A DNA stretch of 30,099 nucleotides from a virus: IMG/VR virus record IMGVR_UViG_3300023313_000023, positions 1-30,099 of that record; one strand, 5' to 3'. The notes beneath the pieces are model-generated. The model was not told where the DNA came from and made no database searches. It worked only from the letters and a program-made list of their open reading frames with translations. A program made the position numbers and the translations under genes. Shown here piece by piece: positions 6,590 to 22,993 of this stretch (positions are counted from its first letter, which is position 1; each line of letters starts with the position of its first letter).

Positions 6590-6918
6590 TAGCAGAAAGC
6601 AGCGTAGTAACCTTCTTAAAGTATTTATGGGTTGGTGTACTCATACCTGCGTTTGCTTTCCTATACCGAAAACAAGAGAAGCACGAACAAAAGACAGAAG
6701 ACTGCCGAGAAGAATTAAGAAGAGAGGTCTTTACTAAAGTGGAGACTCTAGCTGAGATAGACCACCGCCTACTCCCTGTCATCATGGAGATGAAGCAGAG
6801 TAAGGAAGCTAGGGTTGAGAACACTATAGCGGTTAAAGACCTAACTACTTTGATAACTAATTTAAGAATAGACCTCGCTGAACGTAATGGCGAGTCTAAA
6901 ACGAGACATAATGATTAA
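6586..6918 (+). CDS. single-pass membrane coiled-coil protein, 110 aa
   Basis: The product has one N-terminal hydrophobic segment (about residues 8-27, VVTFLKYLWVGVLIPAFAFL) and a long charged helical domain (30-105) of coiled-coil type. It is joined by ATGA overlaps to the o-spanin upstream and the first tail fibre downstream, so it belongs to the same transcript. Its topology would suit a second holin, an antiholin or another lysis regulator, but no conserved motif distinguishes these. No endolysin domain is present in it or its neighbours. Confidence 0.6.
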   Translation: MIAESSVVTFLKYLWVGVLIPAFAFLYRKQEKHEQKTEDCREELRREVFTKVETLAEIDHRLLPVIMEMKQSKEARVENTIAVKDLTTLITNLRIDLAERNGESKTRHND

Positions 6919-8729
6919 TGGCTAGATATAATAAGACAGATGTACAAATAGGGGATAATGTCAAGAGTGATGTTAATGTCCAGCTAGGTCTTATTGAAAC
7001 TGCTATAGGAGATAGTTTAAGCCGTAAAGGAGATTTACCCAATACTATGGAAGCTGATTTAGATATGAATTCTAATCAGATTCTTAACATACCAGACGCT
7101 AAGACATTACAAGAGCCTGTTAGTTATGCTCAACTTCTCTCTACTACTACACTGTTTCAGGCAGCAGATGCTAAGTTTTATGATAGTGTAGCTCTAGCCC
7201 AAGCTGATACATCACTGGTTGCAGGGGATGTCATTATCATTAAAGAAAGAGCTTCAGCTCTGTTTGATGTCATCTCTGGAACTGGTACAGCTAATACATT
7301 TGATATAGTTGCTCACGCTACACTGAGTCTGAGCTTCTCGCTGAGAGAGACTTCAGAGGTTAACATAGTAGCTTTAGGTGCAAAGCCAAACACTTCTACA
7401 GATACAGCACCAATACTACAAAGGGTTGTAGATTTAGAAACATCTTCTAGTGTCTTTTTTCCAGAAGGGGAGTATTCTTTCTTTAGCGGTGTAGTTGTTG
7501 GCAGAGCTTTAACAATTAAGGGTGCAGGTTTTGCTGGCTCTGCTGTTAATTCCTCCTCTAGTAAAAGTACAACATTTTTAGTTAAAGAGTTCTCAGGTGA
7601 TTTGCTAACCTTTGACGGCTCTGCTATAGCAGGCGCAATAGTTGGTAGTGGCGGTGGAGTACAGAAACTAGCAATATTAAACAAGTTTGGTACGTCTGGC
7701 TCAGCTAACGGCTCAGCTATAGTAATAACGGGGGCTGATAGTGTAAACAGGGCAACATGGGTTAAAATAGTAGATGTAGAGATAAATAAATATACAAGCT
7801 CTTATGCTGACTTCACATATGGAGTAGACATAGACGGCACCACAGTTACAAAAGCAATTGGTGGAATAAGAGATATTTTTATCAGCAGGACAAGAATAGC
7901 CAGTGACTCTGGAGCGTCTAATGCTATAAGGGTTAGAACTGGGTTTAACATTTTCATTGACAGTGTATCGATGAACCTAGCCAATGGCTCTATATCATTG
8001 ACAGGTGTATCCGCAACAGATGCTAGTGGTAGTATAAGAATATCTAACTCCTATGGAGCTGGTGTTTTTTCAGACTATGTGGATAGCGTGTACCTAACAG
8101 GTGGTAACTACACATCTTTAACAGCAACAGCTAACAGCTCAGATATAGTGTATTCACCCTCAAAGGCTGGGGTTAGCGATAATAAATCAATAGTGTCAAT
8201 GGTTGCTAATAGCAGATACACTATAATGAATAATAACGGTAATACAGCCGTTGTCGGCAGAGATTTAAATGCTGGTGATAGTACGAATACAACCCAGTTA
8301 GATGTTGGAAATATCAATATTAGTCAAGGCTCTGCTGTAATAGCTTATCAAAATGCAGACCCAGTTACAGGTACACAGAACGCCTATTTCTATTTGAAAG
8401 GAAGGAATGCAGCAAACACAGGCCTTGCTAATCACGCTTATATAAGAATGAACCAAGTAGCTGGCACTGATTCAGCTCAGATGCAGTTCTATTGTGGCTC
8501 AGACAGAAGAATATATTGTTACCAGCAAGGTAATCATAATATTCAGTTAAAAGGTAGTCTACTTCCAGAAACTTCAGCAACATATAATCTAGGGAGTGCT
8601 TCGCAGAAGTGGGGGAAAGCTTTCTTGTCTATCTCAACCTTCGCTGATGATGCTTCTGCTGGAGCTGGTGGTATAGCGCAGGGGCAATTATATAAAACTG
8701 CAACTGGGCAGGTGATGATAAAGCTATGA
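6918..8729 (+). CDS. tail fibre/spike protein 1, beta-helix, 603 aa
   Basis: A 603-residue adhesin. Residues 1-60 form an anchor that includes ADLDMNSNQILNI, a sequence type common at the start of phage tail proteins. Residues 83-142 form a module (ADAKFYDSVALA, VIIIKERASALFDV, FSLR) shared with fibres 2 and 3. At about 148-172 a segment (VNIVALGAKPNTSTDTAPIL) marks the entry to a pectate-lyase-type right-handed beta-helix, which runs to about residue 520. The C-terminal SATYNLGSASQKWGKAFL and AQGQLYKTATGQVMI are typical fibre end modules. It should be a trimer attached to the tail and bind or cleave surface glycan; no catalytic residues can be assigned. Confidence 0.85.
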   Translation: MARYNKTDVQIGDNVKSDVNVQLGLIETAIGDSLSRKGDLPNTMEADLDMNSNQILNIPDAKTLQEPVSYAQLLSTTTLFQAADAKFYDSVALAQADTSLVAGDVIIIKERASALFDVISGTGTANTFDIVAHATLSLSFSLRETSEVNIVALGAKPNTSTDTAPILQRVVDLETSSSVFFPEGEYSFFSGVVVGRALTIKGAGFAGSAVNSSSSKSTTFLVKEFSGDLLTFDGSAIAGAIVGSGGGVQKLAILNKFGTSGSANGSAIVITGADSVNRATWVKIVDVEINKYTSSYADFTYGVDIDGTTVTKAIGGIRDIFISRTRIASDSGASNAIRVRTGFNIFIDSVSMNLANGSISLTGVSATDASGSIRISNSYGAGVFSDYVDSVYLTGGNYTSLTATANSSDIVYSPSKAGVSDNKSIVSMVANSRYTIMNNNGNTAVVGRDLNAGDSTNTTQLDVGNINISQGSAVIAYQNADPVTGTQNAYFYLKGRNAANTGLANHAYIRMNQVAGTDSAQMQFYCGSDRRIYCYQQGNHNIQLKGSLLPETSATYNLGSASQKWGKAFLSISTFADDASAGAGGIAQGQLYKTATGQVMIKL

Positions 8730-8775: not shown

Positions 8776-10140
8776 ATGGCTAGATATACACCCACACCTA
8801 TAGGCTCAGGATATAACTCAACCGCTAGTATCAATGCTGAACTAGACAAGGTTGAGGCTGCCATTGGTGATACACTAAGCCGTGTTGGTGATGCTCCTAA
8901 TACTATGTCTACTGACATAGATATGAACTCTAATCAAATACTAAACCTACAACCTGCTGTAACAGGTGGAGAACCTATAACATTAAGTCAAGGGCTAGAC
9001 TCTCTTAATTGGACTCTACAACAAGCAGACGCTAAGTTCTATGACACAGTGGTACTAGCTACAGTAGATACAAGCCTTGTAGCTGGTAATGTAGTTATTA
9101 TTAAGGAGAGAGCTTCAGCTATATTCGATGTTATAAGTGGTACAGGGACGGCTAATGGTTTTGATATAGTTGCTCACGCAACGCTTAATTTAAGCTTCTC
9201 TCTTAGAAGAGAGAATTCACTAAATGTATTAACACTAGGTGCTGTTAGGGATGGCACCACACAAACTTCTGTAATACAGAGAGCTATAGATATACAATAT
9301 GACACTGGGGGCTTATCATTAGATGGTGCTTTTGTGTACATACCTAAAGGTGTTGTAGTTGATGTAACACTACTAGCATTAAAAGATAATGTAACACTAC
9401 AAGTTGATGATGGACAAACCCTCAAGGTAATAATGAATGGTCAGAATGTATCTGGAGCTGTCAACGAGCAATGGAATGTAGCTGGTTATCACCCTTCCTA
9501 CAACTTAGATGCTCACGATGATTACACAGGTGTTACACTAGGTACAGGGCAAGTTCTGGGGTATAGATGTAGTTTTCTATATAGGATAAATGGGGCAGGT
9601 AACTGGCAGGTAGCACAAGACATAAATAATGTTAAAGACAAGCATTTGACCTTTTTTGCATTAAATCCTTCACAACAAGTGTTAAACCTTCACCATAATG
9701 GTAAGATAAGATATGGGAGGAGAACATCAATACAAGACTTCTCTGACCCCCCAGCTTCTCATTCTTTTAATGAGAATGTCCTTATACAGAGGGATATAGG
9801 GCAAGTTGTTACTTTCCAAATGAGGACAGTTACGGCAGGTGTATTAGATAGCGCTGCTTCAATAGGTGTTAGAAAATTGTTCCAGCTTCAAACATCTGGA
9901 GAACTCTCTGTACTAGACAACCTAGCTGCTAATTTTATATTTAGGTTTAAAGACTCAGGTACGTTTGTTTGTAAAAAAGGTGTAACAGGTAGCAGCTATA
10001 CAACATCAGCAAGAAATGCTTTAACAGGGTGGGCTGCTAATGAAGTAGGCACTATGGTATTCGACTCTACTCTTGGTAAGCCTATATGGCTTAAAGCAAC
10101 AACACCTGTGTGGGTGGACGCTACAGGAGCTACGGTTTAA
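8776..10140 (+). CDS. tail fibre protein 2, 454 aa
   Basis: The N-terminus (ARYTPTPIGSGYNSTASIN, DIDMNSNQILNL, then ADAKFYDTVVLATVDTSLV and IIKERASAIFDV) is homologous in protein to fibres 1 and 3, although the DNA has diverged widely. A LGAVRDGTTQTSVIQRAID segment follows, but the rest differs: the body lacks a long beta-helix pattern and the C-terminus (TMVFDSTLGKPIWLKATTPV, VDATGATV) matches a small end domain found on many phage tail proteins. It sits 46 bases after fibre 1; the ribosome site is poor (AGGA far upstream). It likely offers a second receptor specificity or a structural fibre. Confidence 0.8.
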   Translation: MARYTPTPIGSGYNSTASINAELDKVEAAIGDTLSRVGDAPNTMSTDIDMNSNQILNLQPAVTGGEPITLSQGLDSLNWTLQQADAKFYDTVVLATVDTSLVAGNVVIIKERASAIFDVISGTGTANGFDIVAHATLNLSFSLRRENSLNVLTLGAVRDGTTQTSVIQRAIDIQYDTGGLSLDGAFVYIPKGVVVDVTLLALKDNVTLQVDDGQTLKVIMNGQNVSGAVNEQWNVAGYHPSYNLDAHDDYTGVTLGTGQVLGYRCSFLYRINGAGNWQVAQDINNVKDKHLTFFALNPSQQVLNLHHNGKIRYGRRTSIQDFSDPPASHSFNENVLIQRDIGQVVTFQMRTVTAGVLDSAASIGVRKLFQLQTSGELSVLDNLAANFIFRFKDSGTFVCKKGVTGSSYTTSARNALTGWAANEVGTMVFDSTLGKPIWLKATTPVWVDATGATV

Positions 10141-10636: not shown

Positions 10637-12538
10637 ATGGCTGATTACAACCATACACCTATCTCGAGTGGCTATAACACAACTGCCTCTATTAACAATG
10701 AGCTACAAGCTGTAGAGACAGCGGTAGCAAGTAAGTTAGATGAGAGTGGTGGTGTTCTAGGGAGTGACTTAGATGTTAATAGCCGTAAGCTCCTTAATGT
10801 AGCAGATGGTACTAATAGTGGTGATGGAGTTAACTATGCTCAGTTAGTAGAGAAAGCTTCTATGCAGGTTGCTGATGCTAAGTTCTACGACACTGTCCTC
10901 TTAGCGCAGGCTGACACCACCTTAGTGAGTGGTGATGTGGTTATTATCAAAGAGCGCGCTAGTGCCTTGTTTGATGTTATCACAGGTACAGGCTCAGCCA
11001 ATGGGTTTGACATTATCGCGCATGGTTCACTTAGTCTAAGTTTTAGCTTGAGAGTAGATGGCGCAGCCAATATTGTGGCTTTTGGGGCTGTAGAAGGTGG
11101 GGTGGTAGACATAACGCAGGCTCTTGATAGTATTATAGCTCTAACTCTAACACCAACTATTTATTTTCCAGCAGGTCAATGGCTAGTAAAAGAGTGGATA
11201 ATAAGTAAGCCTTGTACTATAACAGGCGCAGGAATAGACGAGACAAAGATAATACCAAACACCTCAGTTAGTGATAGTGTTTTTGTTATAGCATCCGACA
11301 ATATAACAATCACAGAACTTGGCTTCCAACAAAGAAATGCATCAGGCAGCTCTCAATCAAACATATATGGAACTTGTATCGAACTAAATGCAGTGAAAGG
11401 GAGCGCAGCTTTTACAAGGCACATGGAAGGTGTTAACATACACAAGGTTAAATTCAGAAACCTAAAAATGAATGGTATATTTATCCCACATTTACTAAGG
11501 GAGTCTTTTATAACTGAGTGCAGGTTCTTAGGGATGGGGGATGTTACTAATGACTTCAGTTGCATAAAGGCAGAAAATAGTATAGGTAACGCAAGTAATA
11601 ACAATAATCTATGGATAAGAGATAATAGTTTTTACAGGTTCGAGACACCCCTTATAAATTTCAAGAAATCAACACTTATAACAAATCTTGACCAACCTCA
11701 TTATTCAGATATAAAACTAGCAGGCAACCTACTGCATGGTCAGTTATTAGATGAGACTGCAGCAGTTGAAACAGTGCAAGCAGGGGCGAGCATTTGTATA
11801 CTAATCGAACAAGGTACAGATGTATTCTTGTTAGACAACAAAATAACAGCGCAACACGCACAGTTCCCCGCTGTAAAAATAACTGGTGTAAAAACAACTA
11901 ATAAGGCTTTCTTGTGTATTGGGAACAGGTTTTCAGTAAAAGGTACTATCGGTGGTGTTACTTACAGTAGAGCCATAGGTAATGCAACAGGGAGTGTAGT
12001 GGACATAGAGAATACAAAGTCTGTAGTATTCACAAACAATGTAGTTCAAGGGTCTACCTATAATATTGATATTGACATAAAGTCCACATCCACTGAGATG
12101 AATGCTGGAACTGTAAAAGTAACTGGTGATGGCAATACAACAGAATCAGGGGATATTCTGTTCAGCGTCCCGTCAAACTGGACAGGTATTTACCTAAGCG
12201 AAAATATAATTTATAAAAATGGGCAAACAAAGCTGCAATCAACAGGGCAGACAACACCTGCAATAGCTTTTGGTAACACCACTACAGGCTTCGATGGGAC
12301 TGGTGGTGGTTTTATATCAACTGCCGTAGATGGAACACTAGTCCAGTTAGAGTATGCTGCTAGTGTAAGACCTTTCCCTTCAGGCACTAGAAGTCTAGGA
12401 ACTAATAGCCAAGCATGGGGGAGCGTGAACAGCGTAGCTTATAAGGCTGGGGGTGTAGCAGGGGTAAGCGGAACATTCACAACATCCGACAGTAAGACAG
12501 TAACTGTTACTAGCGGCATTATAACAAGTATAGTATAA
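10637..12538 (+). CDS. tail fibre/spike protein 3, beta-helix, 633 aa
   Basis: Starts right after the preceding stop with the shared anchor (MADYNHTPISSGYNTTASIN) and the shared module (ADAKFYDTVLLAQADTTLVS, IIKERASALFDV). From about residue 145 the NIVAFGAVEGGVVDITQALD segment leads to a long right-handed beta-helix with many short repeating N-N and I-x-I turns (to about 520), as in pectate-lyase-like spikes. The C-terminus has the fibre motif TRSLGTNSQAWGSV. It is likely a trimeric receptor-binding spike; no active-site residues are identified. Position between the TerS candidate and TerL is unusual for T7-like gene order. Confidence 0.85.
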   Translation: MADYNHTPISSGYNTTASINNELQAVETAVASKLDESGGVLGSDLDVNSRKLLNVADGTNSGDGVNYAQLVEKASMQVADAKFYDTVLLAQADTTLVSGDVVIIKERASALFDVITGTGSANGFDIIAHGSLSLSFSLRVDGAANIVAFGAVEGGVVDITQALDSIIALTLTPTIYFPAGQWLVKEWIISKPCTITGAGIDETKIIPNTSVSDSVFVIASDNITITELGFQQRNASGSSQSNIYGTCIELNAVKGSAAFTRHMEGVNIHKVKFRNLKMNGIFIPHLLRESFITECRFLGMGDVTNDFSCIKAENSIGNASNNNNLWIRDNSFYRFETPLINFKKSTLITNLDQPHYSDIKLAGNLLHGQLLDETAAVETVQAGASICILIEQGTDVFLLDNKITAQHAQFPAVKITGVKTTNKAFLCIGNRFSVKGTIGGVTYSRAIGNATGSVVDIENTKSVVFTNNVVQGSTYNIDIDIKSTSTEMNAGTVKVTGDGNTTESGDILFSVPSNWTGIYLSENIIYKNGQTKLQSTGQTTPAIAFGNTTTGFDGTGGGFISTAVDGTLVQLEYAASVRPFPSGTRSLGTNSQAWGSVNSVAYKAGGVAGVSGTFTTSDSKTVTVTSGIITSIV

Positions 12539-16866: not shown

Positions 16867-17001
16867 ATGGCACAAACTACGGGTAACTCCAGCAACATCA
16901 CACGCCAACAGATTTATTCTGGTGGCTTAATGGAATCTTTTGATAATCACCTACTAGGTTTGATTATGATGAGTGACCAATCAGCAGCTTTCCCCGACGG
17001 T
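16867..17001 (+). CDS. major capsid protein, exon 1 (codons 1-45)
   Basis: The ATG at 16867 has AAAGG seven or so bases upstream and encodes MAQTTGNSSNITRQQIYSGG and on to AAFPDG. The frame meets TAA at 17005, three bases into the intron, so unspliced RNA would give only a 46-residue peptide. The exon ends in GACGGT, which pairs with GCCGTC at 17010-17015 to form P1 with the obligatory U-G pair at the splice site. Joined to exon 2 it gives a 317-residue capsid protein reading FPDG-DTFNID without a break. Confidence 0.9.
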
Positions 17002-17952
17002 AAATAATTGCCGTCTTTAAATCTTTTCTGAATAACGTGGAAGTCTAACGACCAACACGAGGCAAGCTTAACAAATTAGACACTCTAGGAGATTAGAGAT
17101 TATGGACGTAAAATATTACGCAGGTCTGTTCGATGCAGACGGGAGTTTCGGAATACAGGTCGATAAACGACAAGACGGGACTTTTAGATTATCAGCAAGA
17201 GCTTCATTAAAACAGCTAGAGTTCAGAGCTAAACCGTTAAAGGATTTAGCAGAAGAACTTAAAGGTACACTATATACAGAACTACACGAGGACAAGCCTG
17301 GATGGCGACCAACCTGCGGTTTTGTAGTTACTCATCAAAAAGCTGTAAGTCTTATGGAGAAACTAAAAAACCACTTAGTAATTAAAAGAGAAGTGGTAGA
17401 TTATATTCTCACAATAAATGGGCAAGTAGTCAACAAGGAAGTGTTAAAGGCTATTAAGAAGATATTGAAAGACTTAAGATATGAAATACATACACTCAAT
17501 AAGAACCACCCAAGCAGAAGATGGATGGCTGGTTATATAGACGGGGATGGATGTATACGCTCACAAGTTAGAAGGTATGGTGGACTATCTACCAAGCTAG
17601 AAGTTACAAGTTATGATAGAGATACGCAAGGTGTAGAACTATTACAAAAGGCTTTTGGTGGAAGTATAAACAAACACGGCAACAACGCAATTAGGTGGGT
17701 TGTCAACATTACTGAAAACAATGCTAACAAGATAATCGGTTATTTTCAAAAACATAGTAGTATGAAGAGAACACAATTACTCTATGTGTTGGATTATTTG
17801 AACAAAGGCAAACACCTCAAGAAACGAGGAGCTACTTTAGAGTCAAATACTAGGTTGAAAGAAACACTCCAACAACTCAAGCAGCCACAACGACTAAGTG
17901 AAAAGACACCTTCGGGTGAAGCTATAGTCTGAATAGGTGAAACTCCTATTGG
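17002..17952 (+). mobile_element. group I intron in the capsid gene
   Basis: The 951-base intron interrupts the capsid gene after codon 45. P1 is exact: exon GACGGU (16996-17001) pairs with intron GCCGUC (17010-17015) across an 8-base loop AAAUAAUU, with U-G at the cut. Near the 3' end are the conserved R-like ACGACTA (17889-17895), the P8 hairpin CACC-TTCG-GGTG (17907-17918), the S-like TATAGTCT (17923-17930), P9 AATAGG/CCTATT (17932-17950) and terminal G 17952. R and S resemble those of the T4 td intron (group IA type). Splicing restores the capsid frame exactly. It carries a homing endonuclease gene and so is potentially mobile. Confidence 0.9.
17102..17932 (+). CDS. intron-encoded LAGLIDADG homing endonuclease, 276 aa
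   Basis: Two LAGLIDADG motifs are seen, YAGLFDADGSF (residues 6-16) and WMAGYIDGDGCI (141-152), each with its acidic metal-binding residue, so this is a monomeric two-domain endonuclease of about the usual size. It would cut intronless capsid genes near the insertion site to start homing. AGGAG precedes the ATG by ten bases. Its last fifteen or so codons coincide with intron core elements R, P8 and S, and the TGA stop lies at the S/P9 boundary, which shows tight coadaptation of ORF and ribozyme. LAGLIDADG enzymes are less common in phage introns than HNH or GIY-YIG enzymes. No inactivating change is visible. Confidence 0.92.
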   Translation: MDVKYYAGLFDADGSFGIQVDKRQDGTFRLSARASLKQLEFRAKPLKDLAEELKGTLYTELHEDKPGWRPTCGFVVTHQKAVSLMEKLKNHLVIKREVVDYILTINGQVVNKEVLKAIKKILKDLRYEIHTLNKNHPSRRWMAGYIDGDGCIRSQVRRYGGLSTKLEVTSYDRDTQGVELLQKAFGGSINKHGNNAIRWVVNITENNANKIIGYFQKHSSMKRTQLLYVLDYLNKGKHLKKRGATLESNTRLKETLQQLKQPQRLSEKTPSGEAIV

Positions 17953-18771
17953 GACACGTTCAATATCGACCAGATTGCTGATGCAACCTTAACCAACTAC
18001 ACTGAGAACGCGGCAGTAGCATACTCTGCAATTTCTTTATCACGAATCACACTAACCATTTCTGATTACAAGCAAGATGGCTTCTACGAAACTGATGCAA
18101 TGAAAATGGACTCTTGGAAGTCTGACTTATTCTTTGCTAAGCGTATTAAGCGTTCTATGGTTGCCTTCGGTGAGCAATTAGAAAGTGATTTATACATTGC
18201 GGCTAACGCCTCTCAAACAGCTTCAGCTACTAACGCAATTGATGGGTTAGCTAGACGAGTTGTATTAGCAGCTGCCTACACAGCACAGGATGTATATGAT
18301 GCTATCGCTGACATTAAGCTTGCTTTCGATAAGTCTAATGTTCCAGAAGTAGGGCGCATGCTAGTTGTTGACCCTAGTGTAGAACGCATCCTCAATGGCT
18401 TAGGAACTAACGCACTATTAGTATCTGACTCTCCTCGTTTTGAGGGCTTGTTAGAGAGTGGCTTTAGCTCTAAACATCACTTTGTACGAAACATCTTAGG
18501 TTTTGATGTGTTTACATCTAACTTACTTCCTGTTTCTACAGGTGCTGAAACCGTTAACGTTGTAGTAGCTGCAATTGGCTCCACTCGTAACTTCGCTTTC
18601 TCTGTTGCAGATGATGACTCTAAGGCAATGATGGGTGTTATCCGTCAGAAGCCTACCCCTGAGTTCTTCCGTAACACAGAGAATAAGCGTGACCAGTGGT
18701 CTGCTACAGCTCGTTATGGCTTCGCGGCTTACCGCCCTGAAAGCTTGTACGTTCTAATCACTAATCCATAG
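17953..18771 (+). CDS. major capsid protein, exon 2 (codons 46-317)
   Basis: The reading frame opens at 17953 with DTFNIDQIADATLTNYTENA and runs 272 residues to TAG at 18771. An internal ATG at 18100 is not the start, since the conserved capsid-like frame extends upstream to the splice site. The full 317-residue product matches the size and position of a HK97-fold coat of a T7-like podovirus (T7 gp10A, 345). It includes helical spine-like RVVLAAAYTAQDVYDAIADI and the PEFFRNTENKRDQW segment near the end. A terminator lies 16 bases after the stop. Expression depends on intron excision. Confidence 0.9.
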   Translation, partial: DTFNIDQIADATLTNYTENAAVAYSAISLSRITLTISDYKQDGFYETDAMKMDSWKSDLFFAKRIKRSMVAFGEQLESDLYIAANASQTASATNAIDGLARRVVLAAAYTAQDVYDAIADIKLAFDKSNVPEVGRMLVVDPSVERILNGLGTNALLVSDSPRFEGLLESGFSSKHHFVRNILGFDVFTSNLLPVSTGAETVNVVVAAIGSTRNFAFSVADDDSKAMMGVIRQKPTPEFFRNTENKRDQWSATARYGFAAYRPESLYVLITNP

Positions 18772-22119: not shown

Positions 22120-22535
22120 TGCCTTGCCAGTCAGTTGACGTTGACACTTTGATAGCTAACTCTCATCTTATTAAAGATACATGGGATGAAGTAGACCAAC
22201 GCAAAGAAGCAGGGATGAAGCTAGACCCTGATTGGGACTTAATGAAAGTGTTAGAGTCTATGGGTAATCTCAAGTGTTATTTGTTTGGTGACTATGGCTA
22301 TGCTATATTTGTTCTATCCCCAGACTTGCACAGGAAAGATAAGACTATAGCGGTAAGCAGCGTTATGTACTTAGATAAAGAACACAGGGGCGAGTTGGAA
22401 AGCTTGCTCCCTACCATTGAGAAAGAACTAAAAGATTGTGGAGCTGATATGATAAGTCTAATAGTAAAGACTAGAGAACAAGGTAAGCTGTATGATTACA
22501 AACTATATGAAAAAATTTACCAGAGGTTTATATAA
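22119..22535 (+). CDS. GNAT-fold-like, T7 gp13-position protein, 138 aa
   Basis: The 138-residue protein shows the order of a GNAT (acetyltransferase) fold: a beta meander (KCYLFGDYGYAIFVLS, then KTIAVSSVMYLDKEHRGELE) followed by a helix, a strand (GADMISLIVKT) and a C-terminal helix-strand. YLDKEHRG takes the place of the acetyl-CoA loop V-x-P-x-x-R-G-x-G but lacks its glycines, so catalysis is doubtful. T7 gp13, equally 138 residues and in the same place between gp12 and gp14, is needed for internal virion assembly. Start overlaps the previous stop; AAAGGAAG lies upstream. Confidence 0.6.
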   Translation: MPCQSVDVDTLIANSHLIKDTWDEVDQRKEAGMKLDPDWDLMKVLESMGNLKCYLFGDYGYAIFVLSPDLHRKDKTIAVSSVMYLDKEHRGELESLLPTIEKELKDCGADMISLIVKTREQGKLYDYKLYEKIYQRFI

Positions 22536-22993
22536 TGGCAACAGCAGTTGTAGTGGCTATAGCAGCAGTGGCTTCAATCAGTGAGAGCCGTAAAGCGAGA
22601 AAGGCTAGCAGACGAGCTAGAAAAGTAGATGAGCGTAGAGGTCGTTTACAAGCTGGTAGACAGGCTATAGATGGTGTTAGACAGGCTCAAATAGCTAGGG
22701 CACAGATAGCTCAAGGTGCAGTTAATAGTGGCGTGGGAGGCAGCTCAGCGAGTCTGGGGGCGCAAGGTGCTGTACAGAGTCAAGCTGGTGGTAACATAGG
22801 CTTCGCTCAACAAGTGTTTAACCTACAGCAAAGTAGGAATAGACTTATCAATAGTGCAGCTATGCACACCTTCAATAGCAATGCTTTCGCGACTATAGGC
22901 TCAGCAGCAGCAGGGTTTGTACAAGCAGGGCAAGGCAAGAGGGCAGATGGCGGGGCACCAGTGACAGACTTATCAACATCGGCAGGCGGTTAA
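22535..22993 (+). CDS. internal virion protein, T7 gp14-like, 152 aa
   Basis: The N-terminus has a hydrophobic Ala/Val helix (residues 2-14) followed by a very basic segment (SRKARKASRRARKVDERRGR, 18-37) and an Ala/Gln/Gly-rich helical domain with GAVNSGVGGSSASLGAQGAV (about 61-80). This is the composition of gp14-type ejection proteins, which leave the capsid first and form a channel in the outer membrane. Position before the two large ejection-protein genes supports it. Starts at the stop of the previous gene. Confidence 0.8.
   Translation: MATAVVVAIAAVASISESRKARKASRRARKVDERRGRLQAGRQAIDGVRQAQIARAQIAQGAVNSGVGGSSASLGAQGAVQSQAGGNIGFAQQVFNLQQSRNRLINSAAMHTFNSNAFATIGSAAAGFVQAGQGKRADGGAPVTDLSTSAGG

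Follow-up and report, generated by a model that had tools for sequence, protein, structure and literature searches.

Phage introns typically encode HNH or GIY-YIG enzymes and interrupt genes such as td, nrd, DNA polymerase or terminase; a review of group I introns in bacteria from 2014 leaves capsid genes unmentioned and names enzymes of the HNH, GIY-YIG and related families, not LAGLIDADG, as those usual in phage introns (PMC3984707). The closest described system is that of mycobacteriophage LittleE, in which RT-PCR and an N-terminal protein sequence that spans the junction demonstrated splicing of a group I-type intron in the capsid gene, and a capsid-gene intron in the lactococcal Tuc2009 is cited in the same paper (PMC3706429). 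The LittleE intron (about 820 bp) lies in the major capsid gene and holds a putative LAGLIDADG-type gene, whose 177-aa, I-CreI-like product is encoded on the opposite strand.

The stretch of DNA analysed here (the window) is the 30,099-base virus record IMGVR_UViG_3300023313_000023, a metagenomic contig. We consider it very probable that the one major capsid gene identified there is split by a mobile group I intron, which splices out, homes by means of a LAGLIDADG enzyme and belongs to a family found almost exclusively in capsid genes. The window resembles LittleE in having a group I-type intron in the major capsid gene and a LAGLIDADG-type gene. However, its endonuclease differs from that of LittleE in being a 276-aa, double-motif protein whose gene lies in P6 on the sense strand and overlaps the core, and no mycobacteriophage capsid intron was among the matches listed for it at E ≤ 10. 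The intron follows the P3-P9 core scheme of the T4, SPO1 and Twort introns and of RF00028, with U.G at the 5' site and a terminal G, whereas its LAGLIDADG gene, its capsid host and its position below the RF00028 threshold set it apart from typical phage introns. The preliminary description of this DNA had placed an intron in the capsid gene as a departure from the usual hosts; the location stands, but LittleE provides a precedent (PMC3706429).

Exons, junction and host phage

The window carries the structural module of a podovirus, with a T7-type terminase large subunit, portal, scaffold, capsid and tail genes. In the major capsid gene, exon 1 (16867..17001, + strand) has 45 codons and ends in FPDG. 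Exon 2 (17953..18771, +) includes the ORF at 18100-18771, a profile match to the phrog_267 major head protein (E 8.1e-24), and its alignment is continuous upstream to 17953. When 17001 is joined to 17953 the result is an open reading frame for a 317-aa capsid protein that runs through FPDG^DTFNID (^ marks the junction here and below), as had been predicted. The preliminary description also expected intronless homologues to be continuous across this point, and they are: three intronless IMG/VR relatives (L001-L003; 82, 71 and 71% aa identity) have no gap at FPDG^DTF, and the capsids of the cultured Zobellviridae RIO-1, Vibrio 1.293, MEP402 and ICP2 also align gap-free with the joined protein. 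The exact empty site GACGGT^GACACGTTC is present in L002 and L003. The intronless form of the capsid site, GACGGTGACACGTTC, is the presumed target of the endonuclease.

The order portal, small ORF, scaffold, capsid is the same in the window and in RIO-1, with the capsid gene directly after the scaffold gene. The label "T7-like podovirus" given earlier agrees with the type of terminase, but among cultured phages the capsid is closest to those of Zobellviridae (RIO-1, ICP2, MEP402). A single major capsid gene was found in the 30-kb record; since this is a metagenomic fragment, a second intact copy may lie outside it. Elsewhere in the window, three consecutive large genes (6918-8729, 8776-10140 and 10637-12538, all +) have an N-terminal region in common (about 'VVIIKERASALFDVISGTGTANGFDIVAH') and then diverge, and look from their sequences like a duplicated tail-fibre or tailspike set.

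Ribozyme core and encoded endonuclease

The group I intron occupies 951 nt (17002..17952, +), as delimited by the empty sites of L001-L003, the core fold, covariation across 22 introns and an insertion site common to a related intron, L027. Its core is complete, comprising P1 and P3-P9 with the P3/P7 pseudoknot included, all on the + strand. P1 (16996..17015) is a 6-bp helix, GACGGU/GCCGUC, between GACGGT (16996-17001) and GCCGTC (17010-17015), the 3' strand beginning after 8 intron bases and U.G lying at the 5' splice site; every coordinate of this previously proposed pairing holds. The 5' strand of P3 (TCTTTTC, 17022..17028) pairs at 7/7 positions with GAAAAGA of P3' (17900-17906). P4 (CGTG 17036-17039 with CACG 17056-17059; 4/4 pairs) encloses P5 (GTC 17043-17045 with GAC 17050-17052), the two together spanning 17036..17059, and the 5' strand of P6 (GGC-AA-GCTT, 17061..17069) is matched with AAGC-A-GCC (17879-17886) in the minimum free energy fold of the ORF-less core. 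P7 (17892..17929; GACTA 17892-17896 with TAGTC 17925-17929, 5/5) surrounds P3' and P8 (CACC TTCG GGTG, 17907-17918). The P9 hairpin (AATAGG 17932-17937 with CCTATT 17945-17950) and the terminal G lie within 17932..17952; P5, P6, P8 and P9 were assigned by fold or by eye. The last intron nucleotide is G17952, at a junction set independently by the empty sites. An automated search, using P1 with U.G, P9, a terminal G and an open frame as criteria, ranked 17001/17002 and 17952/17953 top for the window, with this P1 also best, and hence agrees with the empty sites on the 3' site first proposed.

Without its ORF the core RNA folds into P1, P3, P4, P5, P6, P8 and P9 (z = -3.2; one of 200 shuffles folded equally well), and P7 (GACUA/UAGUC) is left free as the pseudoknot partner. 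The apparent absence of P7.1/P7.2 argues against subgroup IA. Pairing was compared across 22 related introns, the window included, with 10,000 strand shuffles. P3 forms 143 of 154 possible pairs (shuffled mean 78, maximum 103) and is paired at 5/7 positions or more in 21 of the 22 introns despite 21 different 5' strand sequences, and P4 forms 87/88 (shuffled mean 64, maximum 80), so that both exceed every one of the shuffles. P7 is fully paired (110/110) and shows A-U to G-C swaps on both sides in L020, L027, L065 and L069; being highly conserved, it gains little from the shuffle test, in which 8 of the 10,000 equalled the observed value. These results, with the empty sites, uphold the proposal of a capsid gene split by a group I intron.

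The exon-1 frame meets a TAA stop at 17005..17007 (+), 3 nt into the intron. Each of the 33 reconstructed introns, at any insertion phase, has such a stop no more than 18 nt from its start, a count slightly biased by the demand of the junction search for an open exon side; L031, L035, L036, L054, L065, L073, L077 and L094 are not part of this set. Stops just inside introns are known and have been read as keeping ribosomes off the core (PMC3984707).

Within the intron, 17102..17932 (+) encodes a double-motif LAGLIDADG homing endonuclease of 276 aa, identified by Pfam LAGLIDADG_1 (E 2.6e-18), by its motifs and by a family profile that matches the structures of I-OnuI and I-CreI. The motifs AGLFDADG and AGYIDGDG are intact, and D11, D13, D147 and D149 are invariant in 10 homologues. 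This ORF had been omitted from the preliminary description. From its start in the P6 loop it extends at the 3' end over P6', P7, P3', P8 and P7', its last codons doubling as the P7-P3'-P8-P7' RNA and its stop codon falling directly after P7'; of the 22 introns, 21 (one of them the window's) have an ORF that ends beyond the start of the P7 5' strand. Because of this overlap with the catalytic core, translation of the endonuclease should compete with folding of the ribozyme, and may thereby compete with splicing.

Taken with the anatomy, the junction, the covariation, the endonuclease family, the empty sites and the host-gene bias described below, this leads us to infer splicing, cutting and homing. 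In the precursor RNA, ribosomes would be halted ahead of the ribozyme by the stop 3 nt into the intron, the RNA would fold into P1-P9, guanosine would then attack after U17001, and the exons would be joined at FPDG^DTF to restore the 317-aa capsid protein. The LAGLIDADG enzyme would cut the intronless capsid site of co-infecting phages, whose repair would copy the intron in; cutting and homing are read from the enzyme family and from the patchy presence of the intron.

It is very unlikely that the intron no longer splices and that the DNA comes from a dead or defective phage genome. Its origin in a metagenomic contig is compatible with such a reading, but every core helix is perfectly paired, no stop interrupts the endonuclease ORF, the exons or the neighbouring structural genes, both active sites of the enzyme are retained, and the exons are conserved. 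Even less credible is a gene in pieces, in which a free-standing endonuclease gene has entered the locus and the capsid is assembled from two halves that are translated separately, with no splicing: although the exon-1 frame ends 3 nt into the insert and an ATG is found at 18100 within exon 2, such a gene has no need of a ribozyme, and yet a full, covarying group I core brackets the ORF, with P1 and the terminal G exactly at the junction defined by the empty sites. Furthermore, exon 2 read from 18100 drops 49 conserved residues, and the 45-residue exon 1 constitutes no domain. LAGLIDADG enzymes are also found in inteins and, in rare cases, in group II introns, but either identity is improbable in the extreme here, as the insert is out of frame with the exons (TAA, 17005-17007), the ORF matches in Pfam and PHROGs are all to endonuclease families and to no intein family, and the P3/P7 pseudoknot, with its covarying P3, is arranged as in group I introns. 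The readings as intein, group II intron and gene in pieces were accordingly rejected, the first two being contradicted by the reading frame and the core.

A family of introns in capsid genes

The spliced and mobile group I intron favoured here has many relatives. A profile search of IMG/VR with the endonuclease gave 211 matches, of which 80 were kept and reduced to 57 non-redundant loci. In 50,697 phage records the same profile gave three significant matches, of which two belong to one phage, and it gave only two very distant ones in 84,980 prokaryotic genomes, where no bacterial or prophage reservoir of the endonuclease family was seen. The adjacent host exon scores as the phrog_267 major head protein in 52/57 loci and as the terminase large subunit in two (L020, L025), and has no clear assignment in the other three (L031, L036, L077). 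Since eight of the ten members from which the profile was built lie in capsid genes, other host genes may be under-sampled in these counts.

Along the capsid, the junctions that were reconstructed occupy about ten positions, among them EIW^SGK, GKLI^EK, EIA^NTDYEG, FPDG^DTF, LHI^KT, GDA^WY, AWYV^TD and DAA^EQMK. In a tree of the family, members at the same site often cluster, yet neighbours can also be found at different sites of the same gene. The intron of L027 lies at exactly the site of the window, the sequence TTTCCC[C/T]GACGGT^GACACGTTC being near-identical around the junction, with 33% aa identity between the two capsids and 34% between the enzymes. The terL member L025 is firmly grouped with the capsid members L017 and L019, and its site, TTCCT^GGTAC, resembles the capsid site of L019, CGCCT^GGTAC, with CCT^GGTAC in common at the centre; as judged from these sequences, the resemblance is a plausible route for jumping of the intron between terL and capsid. 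In L031 and L036 (with gaps also in L065 and L073) a second LAGLIDADG ORF or extra sequence lies between the first endonuclease and the capsid exon, which suggests two putative introns within one capsid gene in L031 and L036.

Two named phages carry members of the family. In Pseudoalteromonas phage J2-1 (MF370964.1, L025 / L102) the endonuclease is of the same family (34% aa identity) with the same core layout, whereas the host gene is terL rather than the capsid gene; its LAGLIDADG intron is unannotated. RF00028 group I matches lie in J2-1 at 34890-35109 and 119470-119712, and terL may hold two introns. Pseudomonas phage HHBS10_2 (PQ287653.1, L103 2360-4183), a cultured phage, resembles the window in having the same endonuclease family (28% aa identity), P6-ORF layout and capsid family, with the insertion about 30 codons upstream of the window's (FIES^EQYS). 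One copy of the capsid gene was found in its record, and this sole gene is split by an unannotated 885-nt intron; the annotation has no capsid gene, labels the endonuclease as HNH and covers exon 2 with an antisense 'hypothetical protein'.

Comparison of HHBS10_2 with 13 phages that are 92-98% identical reveals one extra block, of 885 nt against O4, and the exact empty site is found in near-identical phages (intronless relatives: O4, K4, PA11 and IME180). Only one breakpoint fits the comparison with O4, GAGAGT^AAATAG...GCGTTAG^GAACAA, in which U precedes the cut and the intron ends in G; P1 is GAGAGU/GCUCUU, and the ORF-less RNA folds with z -5.6. The same record has a sub-threshold RF00028 match at 22162-22950 (-) (E 1.9e-7), possibly a second intron. 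The paper that reports the isolation of HHBS10_2 and its imaging as a podovirus does not use the word 'intron' in its main text (PMC12141865). As the phage was isolated and imaged, its capsid gene must function and hence be spliced, so that the viability of HHBS10_2 is strong indirect evidence that the intron family splices.

Detection and significance for phage biology

The covariance-model check suggested for the window went against expectation: Rfam gave no group I match, either in a gathering-level scan of the window or at E ≤ 10 in 16950-18010, and a tRNA/tmRNA search of the window was likewise empty. At gathering, no RF00028 match was found in 17 family loci, and when RF00028 was forced on six records it matched other introns of J2-1, but not the one with the family endonuclease. 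The silence of Rfam is probably caused by the 800-nt ORF in P6 and is then a limit of the model, RF00028 being a means of detection rather than a defining feature of the class.

It is likely that these loci represent a lineage of LAGLIDADG group I introns specialised on the phage major capsid gene, re-targeted to about ten sites along it and occasionally to or from terL through target resemblance, and that, because Rfam misses them, capsid genes of many uncultured phages read as broken or absent. Targeted literature searches of open-licence papers found no description of a capsid-restricted LAGLIDADG intron family; this family appears to be the undescribed part, an intron of the kind found in the window being already known. 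LittleE already provides a capsid-gene group I intron; the novelty lies in the family specialised on capsid genes and in a test pair that is ready for use.

HHBS10_2 was deposited without a capsid gene as a result of the intron being missed by both the Rfam model and the annotation, and intron-bearing genomes may escape surveys of uncultured phages that rely on the capsid gene. With its intronless relatives O4, K4, PA11 and IME180, HHBS10_2 forms a culture pair that makes splicing and homing testable now. A homing element that keeps largely to a single essential gene while shifting along it offers a good system for studying target change in endonucleases. If splicing holds, the most abundant virion protein of these phages would hinge on the correct self-excision of an RNA from late transcripts.
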